Positions 8,827 through 23,032 of a DNA stretch of 24,040 nt are shown here, piece by piece. A program made the position numbers and the translations under genes. The stretch comes from Stramenopiles sp. TOSAG23-3. Its lineage: Eukaryota; Sar. Positions within the stretch are counted from its first letter, which is position 1. Every line of letters begins with the position of its first letter. Below the pieces are notes generated by a model. It had not been told where the DNA came from, did not search any database, and saw only the letters and a list, made by a program, of their open reading frames with translations. Location: the NCBI GenBank assembly GCA_900128585.1, contig LT642232.1:1-24040 (forward strand). Direction: 5' to 3'.

Positions 8827-11800
8827 TTAGCGAAACTGGGCCTCATCATCTAGCAAACTGAACAGTGGTACCCGGAATCGAAAGCCTTGCAAAGAAACCC
8901 ACTGTAAATCAAAGAAAGGTTGTTCGCGAACACTAATGATATTTCCTGATTTATCGAATACCCCATAAGATAATGAATGCGAACCATCATCATTATACGT
9001 TGTTTGGTGAACATCAATTGTCAGTCTGACTTTCAGCGAGTTTTTATATTTGGTGAACGCGTCCTGACAGCGGTGCAATGCTTCACGTGAAAAGCTTGAT
9101 TCGTTAGACAACCCTTTCGGGTAACAAAAGATAGGGCGTACGAGTATGCATCGTTGCAGTCCCCGTATATTCTGGTGTTCTTTTGCATTCGTTTTGAAAC
9201 AGTTTTTCAATTGAAACCCGATCTGTTGAAGAGTTGACAGTATTTCTTCTTTCCAATCAAAATCGTGAATTCCAAGTGCAATATCATAGAATTGCCTTTC
9301 TCCTGAATATTCCCGAACAAGAGAACACGTGTTAATCCAATTATCATGCGCCTCTCCACTTAACCAGTGCACAACACTTAATCCATTTAATGCTTCGCCA
9401 GCTAAATACAGTGTTTGTATCGAAGCAGCGTGAATGAAGTCAATCAATTTCGGCGCATCAACATCATTTTTTCTTTCAAACAATCTAAAATATTTTGCCG
9501 CCAAACTATTTGTTTTTGTGCCTTTAGGGGTAGATGTTTCAACATAATATTTTCCATCATTCGTGCGACCGATTAACTTACTTTCCCATCCACCAATTAT
9601 GTCTTCCACTCGGCCGAACACGAGTACTCGATTTGATACAACTTCACCTCTTGTCTGCGCAACAGTTAATATGTTGTCTAATTTATCTTTGGTCGCTGGA
9701 CGGTCTAGTATGACCTTATCAGCACTTATACGGCGAAGAGGCATTCTATGACTGCCATGATCAACGAAATTAACATCATACAGCGGCGCAGCTTTGTGTA
9801 TCGTTACATTGATTATCTTACCTTGCAGCCAACAGTTTTTTAAACCACTCGATTGCACTAAAACTTGTTTACCAAGAGCAAGCAATTTTCCCACACTAGG
9901 AGCTATTGCTCCTTTTGAAAGTTCAGAGTATCGGGAAATATGGACAGGACTGCCAGTTTCCTCGGTACCAAGGTAAGTAAAATTTGTGTCAGGTATAGAT
10001 ATAACATTCTGCAGGTTGTGGAGAGCGTCTGAAAATTGGTCACGGGCAACCAAATAGTATTTGCCTTTAGTAACTACATCTGACGTTTCCAAGTGATTCC
10101 AATGTCGAATCAAGTTCACGTTCACGTTGTACCGGATGGATAAAGATTTTACAGAGTCGGTATTTTTTGCTAGATGAAAAGTAAAATTCTGGCCCAGAAT
10201 TATTTCGGTCAATACACCACCGTACAAATGAAAAGTTTTGGACACAGGGTGTGGACTCGTTGCTTTTTGCTGAGCACTGGTGCTTTTTTTGTAAATATCT
10301 GGGTGAGGACCTTTAGTGCGCTGTCCACAATCGGAACAGTCAGTGCCAATCCGACAAACCTGGCTTTTCGAATTTTCACCACCGTCATCGCATACCCCAT
10401 CACCTGCATACTTGCACTTGTCATTGCAAAAGGGGTCTTCTAAAGCAGAATCCTCATCAGTTTTTTTCATATATGCAAACCATTTCGAGTCATCCTCCCA
10501 TTTATCTGAAAATAGTTTCTTTCCAGGCATGAAGTCAGACTGGTACGGGCTAGATAATTTATTTGCACGCCACGATTTTTGAAACACGTGGGTTTCTTTC
10601 ATCATATTTATTGACGAGGGCATTGATTTTAAATCGATTTCTTTGATGTTTGGTTTTCTGGATTTGGCAGCCCTAAGATTTGGTGCTGAAAATCCTGCCT
10701 GCAATTGAGTTGGGCGCTTGCCGCAATCAGTACAGTCTGTTCCAAATTCACACGAATTATATTCCGCCTGAAAACCACCGTCATCGCAAGATCCGTCATT
10801 GGCATACAGACATGTATTTGTGCACAAGCTAGATTTCTCATCTACAGCTTTGACGTCCCTTATATTCTCTTCGTTTTTACGATCGTGCAAATCTCCATGA
10901 TTCCCCATTCTTGCTGTTGCAGGAGAAGAATATTGACCCCTGTCGATGGAAACGAGTGTTCTATCACCATTAGTAGCTTTTTCACTCTTTATCTCGCCCG
11001 AAGAGTCCACGGACGTTATGCCCGCTTTATCTTTCGTCGTCGACAATAAATAACCATTATCTTTATCGGAGTTTATCTGCCGAACAGTTGCTTTCGTGTG
11101 ACCACCATTTCGCCTTTCCATCTCTAGTTGTGTCATTTTTGGGTTGATACTATTAATAAATTTATCGTCGCTGCCTTTTAAAGGATTAGAGGTTCGGTAG
11201 AGTGCCTGGGCTTTGTCAGTCATAGACCTACTAATGTCTTCTCTTATTATCTTCTTTTGGTTCCTACCGAATACTGAATTACCACTACTTTTATGGTCCT
11301 CTTGCCTGTACTCAGCCACACCACTAAAAGATCCGATATGCCCCCCGTCCTTGCCTCGGTATACCGAACTGTTACTTACTACAAAATTAGTAGAGGAAGT
11401 ATTATTTTTGCTGTAATGAGCTTTTTCAAGAATTAGTTTTCCACTTAATCCCTTCTTCTTCAAAAGCGCAACGAAATTCATCTGTGTGTCGACGTCTAGT
11501 TTCAAAATTTCTTTAAACCAAATAGATTGTCGTTCAGTCGTATTTCCAGCTAAGAAACGACCAAATATCGCATTGTTAGTTTCAGATGAAAGAAGATGCC
11601 TTGAACGACTTTGGTTTTCTTTGTTGTTTCCGGAAATATCAATAATGTATTCTTCGCCAGTTGTGATTTTATTTTGAGAGAGTCTATTCCATTTCCGAAA
11701 ATTATTTTCCGAGATTGAATACATAGATAAAACAGTTGAAAATGTTTCACCGCCAAGAGCCTTATGAAATGTAAACCGGTTTCCATTTACGTATTCTACA

Positions 11801-13161
11801 ACATCTTTATTTGGTATGGGAACTCCATATATCTTTTGTGCATGTTTTACTGAATCAGTACCAACACGCTTTGTATCTTCCTTTGTTTTCTTTGTTGTAC
11901 GGGTTTTCTGAATATCTGGGGAGTTATGGTTGTAACTAAATGCTTTTTTTGCTTCTACAACGCTAGCTGTGAAGCTGTTCACTATGCCTCCTTTCGACCT
12001 TCGATCAAATTTGAACAAAGTGCGGTAGAAATATTTTTTTTCCTTTGGACACTTGGAAATAACATTTGCCGGCTGTGCTAGAGTCGGCGGCATCAACCTC
12101 ACGGAACGGCCACCGAAAAGCAATGTGCTACCCCTTTGTTCAGAGTTTATTTTAGTTACAGGAGAGGGAATGCACAATTGGATAAATGCACCCCTTCCAT
12201 CTTTCGCTGTGATGAAAGTTGTATCAAAAAAATTGTAACCCAACCTTGTACTTTCTGGTCTGCCCTGCCAAATATATGTTCTGCTACGATGAAAGAGAGA
12301 CAAAAAGAGCAACTTTGCAAATGAAGTATCTCCCTTGTTCAAAAAAATGTAATCACCGGGCAGACCATGGTATTTATTTATTTCCACCTCTAACTCGTAC
12401 CTAAGGGATTTCATCAATTTTACAACTCTTGCCATAGTCGTGTTTGTATTCCATATTCCTATCTGCAAAGACAAGCTATACTGTAAATCTAGGTGGTCTG
12501 ATACTGACAGGCCTGTACTGCCTCCAACCAATCGCTGTAACGTCGGTCCTATTAGAAAATATTGAATCTGATTTTCATCAAAAAGAGAAACAATCTTGTA
12601 TAATATCGAGTACACGCTGTTCTTATTATGTGGTACAATCATACCAAGCCGTAGCTTCTCCGTTCCGTATCGGTTATACGTGCGAAGAAAGTCTTCCCTT
12701 TTAGCTTCCACTAACCTTAAGCGTTGCACAGTGGTTGGCAAAGCAATCCCATGTTTGGCTAAACTTTGTTCTAAAGCATTTTCTATGTCAATTTTGGTCT
12801 CAAGAAGTGTTTTTGCTTCTCCAATCACCTTCAAATATTTTTCTTCTTCGCCCTTCAGTTTCTGTTTCATCTCAAACAATTTGATTTGGAGTCTTGTTCT
12901 CATCGACAGTTTCGTTGGCGAAAGGTTGCCTGCAGACTTTCCACTTTGTTCCACGTAGAAGATAGTTCCAGATACTCCTAAAAATACCCACCAACCAAGA
13001 AAGCAAACTAGAGTACGGATGGGGCGCAGATTTTCACGATGCCTGGGAATACAGCAACACAATGAATCTGACGAATCAAAATCATTTCTGTCTATGGTTT
13101 TACTAACATATTTCCCACGAACAGTTGGACCCCTATTCTTCGCGCGTTTCCCACTTGACAT
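8827..13161 (-). CDS. Type II membrane protein with paired fukutin-like, LysM-like, LNR and Tudor-like modules
   Basis: The protein has 1444 residues in one exon, with ATG at 13161. A basic cytosolic tail with a CCC cluster (35-37) precedes one membrane anchor (about 49-69), a Lys/Glu-rich coiled coil (about 93-135), and then a large probably lumenal part rich in NxS/T sites. Residues 168-335 resemble a LicD/fukutin nucleotidyltransferase fold (QYFLIGPTLQRLVGG, then SDHLDLQYSL). LysM-like segment 1 is 458-509. After a low-complexity linker come two LNR-like modules, 780-813 and 912-945, each with C-x(3)-C-x(2)-A-x-DG-x-CDDGG and GTDC-x-DCG. LysM-like segment 2 is 985-1038, and Tudor-like folds are at 1090-1148 (LYDVNFVDHG) and about 1174-1230. 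Residues 1236-1444 look fukutin-like (YDIALGIHDFDW; FFDLQWVSLQGFRFRVP). Fukutin relatives transfer phospho-sugars to glycans in the Golgi. In both domains the usual DxD is altered, so these may be weak or non-catalytic. A role in glycan modification or binding is inferred. Confidence 0.8.
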   Translation of the reverse strand: MSSGKRAKNRGPTVRGKYVSKTIDRNDFDSSDSLCCCIPRHRENLRPIRTLVCFLGWWVFLGVSGTIFYVEQSGKSAGNLSPTKLSMRTRLQIKLFEMKQKLKGEEEKYLKVIGEAKTLLETKIDIENALEQSLAKHGIALPTTVQRLRLVEAKREDFLRTYNRYGTEKLRLGMIVPHNKNSVYSILYKIVSLFDENQIQYFLIGPTLQRLVGGSTGLSVSDHLDLQYSLSLQIGIWNTNTTMARVVKLMKSLRYELEVEINKYHGLPGDYIFLNKGDTSFAKLLFLSLFHRSRTYIWQGRPESTRLGYNFFDTTFITAKDGRGAFIQLCIPSPVTKINSEQRGSTLLFGGRSVRLMPPTLAQPANVISKCPKEKKYFYRTLFKFDRRSKGGIVNSFTASVVEAKKAFSYNHNSPDIQKTRTTKKTKEDTKRVGTDSVKHAQKIYGVPIPNKDVVEYVNGNRFTFHKALGGETFSTVLSMYSISENNFRKWNRLSQNKITTGEEYIIDISGNNKENQSRSRHLLSSETNNAIFGRFLAGNTTERQSIWFKEILKLDVDTQMNFVALLKKKGLSGKLILEKAHYSKNNTSSTNFVVSNSSVYRGKDGGHIGSFSGVAEYRQEDHKSSGNSVFGRNQKKIIREDISRSMTDKAQALYRTSNPLKGSDDKFINSINPKMTQLEMERRNGGHTKATVRQINSDKDNGYLLSTTKDKAGITSVDSSGEIKSEKATNGDRTLVSIDRGQYSSPATARMGNHGDLHDRKNEENIRDVKAVDEKSSLCTNTCLYANDGSCDDGGFQAEYNSCEFGTDCTDCGKRPTQLQAGFSAPNLRAAKSRKPNIKEIDLKSMPSSINMMKETHVFQKSWRANKLSSPYQSDFMPGKKLFSDKWEDDSKWFAYMKKTDEDSALEDPFCNDKCKYAGDGVCDDGGENSKSQVCRIGTDCSDCGQRTKGPHPDIYKKSTSAQQKATSPHPVSKTFHLYGGVLTEIILGQNFTFHLAKNTDSVKSLSIRYNVNVNLIRHWNHLETSDVVTKGKYYLVARDQFSDALHNLQNVISIPDTNFTYLGTEETGSPVHISRYSELSKGAIAPSVGKLLALGKQVLVQSSGLKNCWLQGKIINVTIHKAAPLYDVNFVDHGSHRMPLRRISADKVILDRPATKDKLDNILTVAQTRGEVVSNRVLVFGRVEDIIGGWESKLIGRTNDGKYYVETSTPKGTKTNSLAAKYFRLFERKNDVDAPKLIDFIHAASIQTLYLAGEALNGLSVVHWLSGEAHDNWINTCSLVREYSGERQFYDIALGIHDFDWKEEILSTLQQIGFQLKNCFKTNAKEHQNIRGLQRCILVRPIFCYPKGLSNESSFSREALHRCQDAFTKYKNSLKVRLTIDVHQTTYNDDGSHSLSYGVFDKSGNIISVREQPFFDLQWVSLQGFRFRVPLFSLLDDEAQFR

Positions 13162-16100: not shown

Positions 16101-16191
16101 GACTCACTCACTTCGCTTTGTTTGCTTTCGGGTCAATATTTTTTTCCTACCCTTATTCAGAAGTTGTTAATTGGCATCAGATTATTCATCA
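13162..16191. other. Long gene-poor spacer
   Basis: Three kilobases without a convincing gene. Small hairpins are visible at 13721-13734 (agtcg-ctga-cgact) and 14390-14420. An ATG at 14483 opens 59 codons with a hydrophobic stretch (WVMTYLMVCIIVFVTLTY) ending at 14662, but it has no other support. Other frames at 14052-14333, 15162-15377 and 15590-15908 look like chance AT-rich frames. The last 200 bases must include the promoter and 5' untranslated region of the Mei2-like gene; tttttttcctacccttattcag at 16139-16160 resembles a 3' splice site, which would imply a 5' untranslated intron. No tRNA or snRNA signature was found. Confidence 0.5.
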
Positions 16192-17742
16192 ATGAGTCGT
16201 TTGCCTCCAGGTTTTGGTGGAGGATTTTCTCAGAGTGCGACAGGTGAACAACAGAATACTTTTGAAATGCCTGGCCAAAGTTCCGTCAGACAACCACCAT
16301 TGCCAGGATTATGGGGCGGACAACAACAGCAACAAAACAACTCTATTGAAAATAATTCTTCCACATGGGATCTAGATTCGGGTTTTAGTGCTCTGCCAGT
16401 AAGGAGAAGTGCAAGCAATACTGAGATCCAGGCCAACAATACACCAGCGCATGACGACAAACTTGAGTCCCCTGGACCGGGAAAAAGTTACAATTACGCA
16501 GCAGCTGCTGCATCCGGTGGAAACTCACGGAAAAATACACTAGGGGTAAATGAAGGTCAGCGTTCTCAGCAACTCAATAATGCAAACGAGCAGCAATTCC
16601 GAGCACCCTGGGTATCCAATGTTGGAAAAACGGCTAGTTTTCCATCCGGGCCAAACCCATTGTCGCAATTGGCAGCACAACAAAAGGAATTGATCAAGCT
16701 ACAAGAAAATTTAATGCAAATGATGCAATCGCAGGCTAACGCTGGCTTCAAAGACCCTCAAGTCTTCATGGATTTACAACGCCAACAGGCCATTGCAACC
16801 GCACAATTACAATCTATGCAGGATGCATTTCGTGCCCAACAGCAAACTGTCCCGTCTTTTCCGTATTCACAATCAATTGTGCTTGGTTCGTGGCCACTTC
16901 GGCAGCCCACTGCGCAGCCAACAATAAACCGTGCTGTGGGAAATTTGAACAACGACTATAAGAATGTTCAGATTAGACAGGGACAACATATTGTTACAAA
17001 CAACCAAGAATCGGTGTTCTACCAAGGCCCCGGTCAGCACTCTTCCCGAAACCGTTTTAACAGCGGTAGTAGCACCGGTAGTGCCGGGTATGATGAAGGA
17101 TCTTCACAAAATCCTCCAAGGGGGGCCATGACTTACGGCGCTGTTGTAGCTGGAAATACTACTCGCACAGGGACAGTCAGATCCTCGGGCGCGAAGAGCT
17201 TCGGAAATTTAAATCAAATTGGGAGAGATAAGAGAAATGATAAACGTGGACAAAGTCCCAAAGGCGATAATCGTCGAAGTATCCCCGAAATTCCAAATGA
17301 AAAAGATTGTGTTGAAGGTCGGGAGAAAAGAACCACTTTAATGATTCGAAATATTCCGAACAAGTACACACAAACCATGTTGTTGGAAGAGCTTAACGAA
17401 GTATTACATCGAAAATTTGACTTTTTCTACCTGCCAATTGATTTTCGAAAGAAAACAAATATGGGGTACGCGTTCATTAATATGATCGATCCTGTTGCAA
17501 CTGTAGTTTTGGTGAAACAATTTCATGGCAAAGGATGGCGCTCTAGTAAAAGTGAAAAAATATGCCAAATATCATATGCAAGAATCCAAGGAAAGCATGC
17601 CTTAGTGGAGCAGTTCCGTAATTCAACTGTTATGTCAAAAAAAAAGCAATACAGGCCTATAATCTTTTTCAGCGATGGCCCTTCCATAGGAACGTCTGAG
17701 CCTTTTCCACCTGGTAACAATAGTTCCAAGCAACGCGTATGA
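16192..17742 (+). CDS. Mei2-like RNA-binding protein (C-terminal RRM)
   Basis: The protein has 516 residues from the first ATG at 16192; a TAA in frame at 16168 rules out a longer start. The first 370 residues are low-complexity: Gln/Asn-rich (QQQQQ near residue 45), Gly/Ser-rich, with a helical Q/M-rich stretch at about 157-218 (QLAAQQKELIKLQENLMQMM). Residues about 380-484 are the Mei2-type RRM (RRM_2): RTTLMIRNIPNKYTQTMLLE, FDFFYLPIDFRKKTNMGYAF, then ISYARIQGKHALVEQFRNS and RPIIFFSDG. This domain defines Mei2 of fission yeast and the plant AML/TEL proteins, which bind RNA and control meiosis or developmental switches. Unlike many AML proteins, no extra N-terminal RRMs are visible, so this is a single-RRM form. 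Two similar SYNYAAAAASGG and TYGAVVAGNT blocks (about 99-110 and 314-323) may be short linear motifs. The target RNA is unknown. Confidence 0.93.
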   Translation: MSRLPPGFGGGFSQSATGEQQNTFEMPGQSSVRQPPLPGLWGGQQQQQNNSIENNSSTWDLDSGFSALPVRRSASNTEIQANNTPAHDDKLESPGPGKSYNYAAAAASGGNSRKNTLGVNEGQRSQQLNNANEQQFRAPWVSNVGKTASFPSGPNPLSQLAAQQKELIKLQENLMQMMQSQANAGFKDPQVFMDLQRQQAIATAQLQSMQDAFRAQQQTVPSFPYSQSIVLGSWPLRQPTAQPTINRAVGNLNNDYKNVQIRQGQHIVTNNQESVFYQGPGQHSSRNRFNSGSSTGSAGYDEGSSQNPPRGAMTYGAVVAGNTTRTGTVRSSGAKSFGNLNQIGRDKRNDKRGQSPKGDNRRSIPEIPNEKDCVEGREKRTTLMIRNIPNKYTQTMLLEELNEVLHRKFDFFYLPIDFRKKTNMGYAFINMIDPVATVVLVKQFHGKGWRSSKSEKICQISYARIQGKHALVEQFRNSTVMSKKKQYRPIIFFSDGPSIGTSEPFPPGNNSSKQRV

Positions 17743-22194: not shown

Positions 22195-22707
22195 TTAATG
22201 AGTAGTAGTGAAATGCATGGTTACAAATCTGAAAGCGCAATTGATCATCGCAGCCCTTTTTGTGCTGAATTTTGATAGGTGGTTCTGGGCGCTGGGGGTG
22301 ATTAGATGTGAGCCAGTATACACATCATCCAATTTGTTACAATCTATGTTGAAAAATATTTGTTCATTTGCATCAATATTGCAGTCAACCCCAATATATC
22401 CAGCCTCACACGAGCAAAACCCATCTCGGCAAATACCTCTTCCACTACATGTAACCCCATGAGTCTTTGGGCATAACTCGTTCTTGTTAGGATCAGCGCC
22501 TATGTTTTTGCCTGCTAAAGTACCCAACTTTTCTACAAAACGGATTCCAGTCTTGCTGTGTTCTTCTCTTTCAGTACGGATTTGGGAGTTAATCATTTTG
22601 AAAGATAAGTAGCTCTGTTTTAATGGAACCACATCACCCGCGGTTAAACAGCTCAAAGAAAAAAGAATTGCCAGAGAAATATGGGATTGGGCTAGTACTA
22701 CTTTCAT
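22195..22707 (-). CDS. Small secreted protein with one EGF-like domain
   Basis: The protein has 170 residues from the ATG at 22707. Residues 1-24 are a clear signal peptide (SLAILFSLSCLTAG core). The mature part starts with a polar stretch. Residues 79-109 are an EGF-like module with six cysteines (C79, C87, C93, C98, C100, C109) in the pattern of EGF_2/tenascin-type domains: NxxCSGRGxC…FCSCEAGYIGVDC. Two more cysteines follow (C123, C157). No membrane anchor is seen at the C-terminus, so the protein is probably secreted or wall-associated; EGF modules usually mediate protein binding through Ca2+ or disulfide-stabilised surfaces, and this one lacks the leading DxxEC calcium signature. It is transcribed away from the EF-hand gene, with about 300 bases between the starts, so they may share a promoter region. 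The ligand and role are unknown. Confidence 0.85.
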   Translation of the reverse strand: MKVVLAQSHISLAILFSLSCLTAGDVVPLKQSYLSFKMINSQIRTEREEHSKTGIRFVEKLGTLAGKNIGADPNKNELCPKTHGVTCSGRGICRDGFCSCEAGYIGVDCNIDANEQIFFNIDCNKLDDVYTGSHLITPSAQNHLSKFSTKRAAMINCAFRFVTMHFTTTH

Positions 22708-23032
22708 TTTCAGTTTGCTGAATGGAAAGTCGTGGGTAAGATTTCTGTATTATGAATGCTTTTTGGTGATACAATCAGATTCTGGCTGGAATTGTTGAGG
22801 AGCAAGGAATCATGTTTCCCACTTTATTCTGACATGCAAGAAAGAAAGTTGTTAGTTAGAGCAAATAAATGTTCGGAAAAAGCTGGTGGCTTGACATTTC
22901 ATAAAGTGTAACATCTACGTGCTGTGTCAATAGTTGAAAAATTGAAATCACAGTAGTAGTGTACAGTGTTTAATGTAATGGTCGGAAACAATTTCACTTC
23001 TTCTCCTGGTGATTGCGTTAAGTCTCACCTTC
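22708..23032. promoter_or_regulatory. Divergent promoter region between the EGF-like and EF-hand genes
   Basis: About 300 bases separate two divergent starts, so both promoters must lie here. No firm TATA or known operator is visible. The right end (22979-23032) is open in the frame of the EF-hand gene and encodes a hydrophobic run (SETISLLLLVIALSLTF) before that gene's first ATG, with an out-of-frame ATG at 22978. Confidence 0.45.

Follow-up and report, generated by a model that had tools for sequence, protein, structure and literature searches.

We examined a gene for a large fukutin-like membrane protein in a 24,040-nucleotide stretch of the Stramenopiles sp. TOSAG23-3 assembly (GCA_900128585.1, contig LT642232.1, positions 1 to 24,040; this whole stretch is hereafter the window). 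An earlier inspection of the letters without database searches, the sequence-only reading, had claimed an open reading frame (ORF) for a 1444-residue type II membrane protein at 8827..13161. The ORF is real: a single exon of 1444 codons on the minus strand, with an in-frame stop directly 5' of its ATG. A database cluster (8 members; 9,389-base contig) holds a protein of the same length that differs at one residue, K667E. The features discussed below are as follows.

8827..13161, minus strand: single-exon ORF of 1444 residues, stop codon included (open frame, 4335 bases)
12955..13014, minus strand: membrane anchor, residues 50-69 (hydrophobic peak)
12667..12909, minus strand: residues 85-165, the stem, which may form a coiled coil (heptad signal weak, 79/2000 shuffles)
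12010..12711, minus strand: probable fukutin N-terminal-domain-like segment, residues 151-384 (FKTN_N; LicD profile at 185-226)
9502..12009, minus strand: insert of 836 residues between the two putative fukutin halves, residues 385-1220 (flank alignments)
11635..11790, minus strand: LysM 1, residues 458-509 (Pfam below cut-off; 2mkx; likeness to LysM 2)
10714..10824, minus strand: CDDGG six-cysteine repeat 1, residues 780-816 (near copy of repeat 2)
10318..10428, minus strand: CDDGG six-cysteine repeat 2, residues 912-948 (near copy of repeat 1)
10048..10209, minus strand: LysM 2, residues 985-1038 (Pfam above cut-off)
9472..9894, minus strand: possible SH3-like/Tudor-like pair, unconfirmed, residues 1090-1230 (Pfam scores under cut-offs)
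8830..9501, minus strand: fukutin-type LicD domain, residues 1221-1444 (pairwise FKTN similarity)
9277..9285, minus strand: D1293-I-A1295 where fukutin has the DVD metal motif (alignment; codons GAT ATT GCA)

The only hydrophobic peak, near residues 50-70, comes after a basic N-terminus and suggests the type II anchor that had been proposed. Eleven N-glycosylation sequons occur in the protein. The coiled coil previously placed in the stem was not confirmed by its weak heptad signal.

Fukutin similarity on either side of a proposed insert

Fukutin is an animal enzyme of sugar-phosphate transfer whose defects underlie a muscular dystrophy. For comparison we used FKTN, which we take to be the human fukutin sequence. 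Pfam recognizes it as FKTN_N (1.4e-153, residues 1-278) followed by LicD (residues 290-328), and in hhalign a LicD profile recognizes its C-terminal part at 98%. By Smith-Waterman alignment, residues 1229-1444 of the protist protein score 85 against FKTN 286-461 (z 11.6, 0/2000 shuffles), a score that no window in a set of 652 real, unrelated ones attains (highest 51). BLASTP pairs FKTN 255-346 with residues 1221-1322 at 33/102 identities, with a pairwise E of 1.7e-7 that becomes 1e-4 when scaled to a million-letter database. Residues 1213-1444 against FKTN 251-461 give z 16.2, compared with −1.0 to 1.7 for 31 other LicD-family sequences, several of them near-duplicates and one of them FKRP (0.1). 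When the whole assembly was searched with FKTN, this gene ranked first of 4 matches (2.4e-4). Because of these matches, we assign the C-terminal domain, on sequence grounds, to the fukutin type. General LicD or FKRP membership of the domain was rejected, as no pairwise signal was found against any of the 31 sequences. FKRP (PDB 6KAJ and others) and the bacterial and viral LicD proteins belong to the same superfamily as fukutin, and FKRP supplies the tested catalytic residues; they are unlike the protist protein in that their pairwise z is at most 1.7 to its C-terminal segment and at most 2.8 to its N-terminal one.

At the other end of the insert, residues 151-370 score 53 against FKTN_N (z 5.0, 5/2000 shuffles). 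This is the top z among 33 sequences, the best LicD reaching 2.8, and longer N-terminal stretches of the protein against FKTN give z 4.8 (8/5000). A search of the assembly with FKTN_N returned no match, its controls stayed silent too, and it is hence little informative. Crossed pairs, with each half set against the opposite half of FKTN, remain at background (z 1.4 and −0.7), and the two fukutin-like segments are unlike each other (z −0.3, 616/1000 shuffles). The sequence-only reading had placed a fukutin-like domain at both sites. Similarity is indeed present at both, but it is to opposite halves of FKTN, and duplicated fukutin domains were rejected.

The two segments are collinear with FKTN. 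Both flanks of the insert (residues ~373-384 and ~1221) align near FKTN 253-262, the FKTN_N model ending at 278, and six pieces of the insert lack FKTN signal (z −1.0 to 0.5). Because the FKTN order is kept, the flanks align so closely together and the insert is without FKTN signal, the protein is best read as a single fukutin into which ~836 residues are inserted near the border of its two domains, not as doubled domains, and residues 151-384 are probably the N-terminal half. Like fukutin (PF19737 plus PF04991), it would have an anchor, an N-terminal domain (probable) and a LicD-type domain in that order; unlike fukutin, it has a longer stem in addition to the insert near the domain border.

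The N-terminal segment also gives a LicD signal. When scored with a LicD profile built from 31 sequences (24 viral ones, 5 own, L094 and FKRP), residues 151-370 reach 24.5 (0/100 shuffles; 0/621 unrelated windows, maximum 24.2). The signal is confined to residues 185-226, aligned with the GTLLG...DxD stretch, and recurs under a second column rule of the same profile (0/100 shuffles) and with a 7-sequence profile (18.8, 1/100 shuffles). The 621-window control omits windows holding the tested motifs; in an earlier set of 600, biased by the many windows from loci fetched with the motifs under test, 9/600 score at least 24.5 and 44/600 at least 17.3. FKTN_N itself as a decayed nucleotidyltransferase (NTase) domain was unsupported (13.9, against 18.8 for the best of 60 shuffles).

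Several results weigh against a single opened fukutin. The FKTN query is presumed, from its Pfam and hhalign matches, to be the human sequence. Pfam recognizes neither fukutin part of the protein, PF04991 being silent and hmmscan returning no FKTN_N (PF19737) match, and phmmer with FKTN finds the C-terminal match and none at the N-terminus. The N-terminal score of 53 is a weak one, equalled by 1/652 unrelated windows. The C-terminal domain is not conspicuous against general LicD profiles: with the 31-sequence profile, residues 1229-1444 score 17.3 (2/100 shuffles, 31/621 real windows; 4/100 shuffles under the second column rule), and shuffles score as high in 7/100 cases with the 7-sequence profile and in 38/60 in a further comparison. 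That 7-sequence profile also gives insert tiles (661-1060) 19.7-20.4, above residues 151-370. Finally, AlphaFold2 models were uninformative, both from the single sequence of residues 980-1444 (predicted local distance difference test, pLDDT, 33) and from residues 770-955 with six relatives (pLDDT 46).

An alternative that we consider rather unlikely is a mosaic produced by fusion: fukutin would have contributed the C-terminal domain alone, and residues 151-384 would be either unrelated or a general LicD-like segment. The modest FKTN_N match, the lack of one from Pfam or phmmer and the general LicD profile signal in residues 151-370 all fit such a protein; the collinear order behind an anchor, as in fukutin, and the rank of FKTN_N as best of 33 sequences for the segment (5.0; next 2.8) argue for a single opened fukutin instead.

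The catalytic site

Excerpts of PMC6965139 report that D360, D362, D364 and D416 of FKRP are each required for activity, that the FKTN model keeps equivalents of D362, D364 and D416, and that NTases carry an hG[GS] motif as defined there. In our alignment, the equivalents of FKRP D362, D364 and D416 are D1293, A1295 and D1383, so that the DVD of fukutin has become DIA. The G[GS] motif is GEA, aligned with 'SGT' in FKTN, and the C-terminus ends ~37 residues before that of fukutin. Read by eye, the bases after the stop show no evident coding that would supply the lost C-terminus as a missing last exon. The set of three carboxylates expected of an active NTase is thus incomplete, and the G[GS] motif is absent. 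Because the D364 equivalent is alanine, GEA stands at the G[GS] site and the C-terminus lacks ~37 residues, catalysis is unlikely, and the LicD-type domain probably no longer transfers sugar phosphate. A phospho-sugar transferase fold had been predicted here: the fukutin-type sequence agrees with it, and the loss of residues essential in FKRP weakens the transferase part.

We find it improbable that the protein is nonetheless a working, unorthodox transferase with altered metal ligands, its acceptor being delivered by the LysM modules. The idea would suit the survival of two NTase aspartates out of three (D1293 and D1383) and the intact reading frame, but D364A is the very change that abolished FKRP activity in the excerpts of PMC6965139, and both the GEA motif and the shortened C-terminus add to the difficulty.

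Other LicD-type genes occur in the assembly, five found with PF04991 and one more with FKTN, all six with an intact DxD by eye. The additional gene (C436:36095-36598) was missed by the PF04991 search. Its 245-residue frame has what looks like an intact fukutin/LicD-type site (GTLLG, NDVDF, KVDLF), and close by on that strand lies a frame with a possible membrane anchor. Compared with the C-terminal domain described here, the additional gene gives z 2.8 (16/1000).

Modules of the proposed insert and their relatives

LysM 2 passes the Pfam cut-off in a whole-protein scan (PF01476, 2.2e-5, 24.8 bits against 20.9). LysM 1, cut out alone, falls below it (0.0053, 17.1 bits) and also aligns to the solved autolysin domain 2mkx (0.024). 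At both places NCBIfam gives matches, far under cut-off, to two bacterial wall enzymes that presumably bear LysM. The two modules are related to each other (score 83, z 13.8, 0/1000 shuffles) and score 22-32 (z 1.0-3.7) against the two other LysM modules of the assembly, in keeping with the earlier remark that they resemble each other more than a generic LysM. They differ from those of other LysM proteins in sitting within a fukutin-like protein. The other two modules of the assembly belong to giant proteins on contigs C257 and C552, whose open frames run to 2801 and 2071 residues, with abundant coiled-coil-like sequence by eye and, in one of them, EGF-like stretches; the G+C of these loci is 0.53, well over the 0.37 of the window.

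Between the LysM modules stand two near-copy repeats (z 16.3 for 780-814 and 912-946), ~95 residues apart, of the form CDDGG...GTDCxDCG with cysteine spacing 3-7-11-5-2. The pattern occurs 35 times across eight proteins, counting the protein of the window and the copy of it in the database, and 31/35 repeats have this spacing; one is spaced 3-8-12-5-2, and three in the relative P0007 have one extra cysteine. For the six database relatives alone the figure is 27/31, and the protist protein is unlike them in carrying just two copies, set between LysM modules. The repeats had been taken for Notch-type LNR modules, with which they share six cysteines and GxCD-type acidic sequence. We rejected this identity on account of the different cysteine spacing and the lack of a Pfam Notch match: PF00066 gives nothing at E<=10 in either repeat, nor in the repeat-rich relatives P0004 and P0005, and a pattern for the LNR spacing has 0 matches in nine proteins. 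On sequence, we class them as a CDDGG...GTDCxDCG repeat for which no Pfam family was found. A literature text search for 'CDDGG' returned only papers whose titles and abstract openings concern unrelated subjects.

Two other carriers of the repeat deserve mention. At C116:11002-11253 the same assembly has a locus whose 589-residue frame starts with signal-like sequence, contains a single CDDGG repeat and carries a membrane-like stretch in its C-terminal part; it likely encodes a surface protein. P0004 is a papain-like protease (PF00112) with seven repeats and, by eye, a lipoprotein-like N-terminus; it is possibly bacterial. The repeat may be present in bacteria and eukaryotes alike.

The last part of the insert, residues 1090-1230, had been described as a Tudor-like pair. 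Its Pfam scores are all below cut-off (DUF1918 0.03, Agenet 0.21, Tudor_2 0.21) and its two halves are dissimilar (991/1000 shuffles as high), leaving the pair unconfirmed. The picture of four domain classes each appearing twice accordingly gives way, the fukutin parts being different halves, the repeats not LNR and the Tudor pair unproven.

Searches for relatives were limited to proteins of 0.55-1.75 times the 1444 residues, a range that leaves ordinary fukutins of ~460 residues outside. The whole-protein search gave 8 matches: the protein itself, six sharing the CDDGG repeat and one (P0009) sharing LysM. Within the same length range, regions 90-520 and 1040-1444 found only the protein's own cluster. 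No second example of the architecture appeared among proteins of this length, in agreement with the earlier remark that no described family with it was known, and the joining of a membrane anchor, fukutin-type sequence, LysM and cysteine-rich repeats in one protein is borne out. Within the assembly, the C-terminal, N-terminal and Tudor-like pieces as queries returned only themselves, and protein searches of viral contigs found no LicD relatives. We found no paper pairing fukutin with LysM, in a protist context or otherwise, and none for fukutin with 'choanoflagellate', a term that misses the spelling Choanoflagellata used in PMC8478517.

The full original proposal, in which fukutin-like transferase domains occur in duplicate beside LNR and Tudor pairs and form a new glycan-processing system, appears very improbable: it correctly has the membrane anchor, the LysM pair and a repeat pair, but the fukutin-like segments are unalike, the repeats are not LNR, the Tudor pair is unconfirmed and the active site is degenerate. 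Hardly credible at all is an assembly or binning artefact joining pieces of different genes, for although the assembly (12,883,446 bases) lies in 660 contigs and the G+C of some of its loci varies from 0.37 to 0.53, the 4335-base frame is unbroken, its length recurs in a database cluster of 8 sequences, and the mutually related LysM modules and six-cysteine repeats all lie inside it.

The neighboring genes in the window are a piece of a NIPA-type transporter, a CAAX-protease-type protein, a Mei2-type RRM protein and an EGF-like protein; they suggest no pathway. The Mei2-type RNA-binding protein (16171-17742, plus strand; RRM_2 3.4e-38) has a long Q/N-rich N-terminal part. The EGF-like protein (22195-22749, minus strand) is a 184-residue frame that combines a signal-like stretch with a single teneurin-type EGF module (5.8e-7).

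A possible scaffold role

We place roughly 55% on the protein being a protist fukutin homologue with an ~836-residue insert and a dead active site, located in the secretory pathway and acting there as a scaffold that binds glycans. A scaffold is the likeliest role because the active site has decayed. The predicted layout runs from a short cytosolic tail through the anchor, the stem and the N-terminal fukutin domain to the insert (LysM, two CDDGG repeats, LysM and a possible SH3-like barrel pair) and the C-terminal LicD-type NTase domain. Its place would be the Golgi or the cell surface, with most of the protein facing the lumen. Its LysM modules may hold glycans that contain N-acetylglucosamine (GlcNAc) or similar ones, and the presumably inactive fukutin halves may serve as a dock for a partner, such as an intact LicD-type transferase of the same assembly. 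As for its origin, we give somewhat less than even odds to a history in which the protist turned fukutin into this scaffold: an opening near the domain border took in LysM and six-cysteine modules, and the active site decayed.

Mutations in fukutin and FKRP cause dystroglycanopathies. According to excerpts of PMC8478517, all enzymes of the dystroglycanopathy pathway save LARGE2 are found in Choanoflagellata, which lack dystroglycan, and animal POMGnT1 attaches to fukutin as well as to the glycan being built, helping fukutin act. Built-in LysM modules would give the protist fukutin a glycan-binding part of its own, where animals use POMGnT1 as a partner. A protist homologue with LysM between fukutin halves thus offers a testable case of glycan binding in cis, and of a fukutin that may work without catalysis, and it marks the fukutin domain border as a place that would tolerate ~836 inserted residues. 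If this reading is true, the protein would be a natural pseudo-fukutin with its own glycan-binding modules, and it would show the two-domain fukutin layout outside the animal setting.

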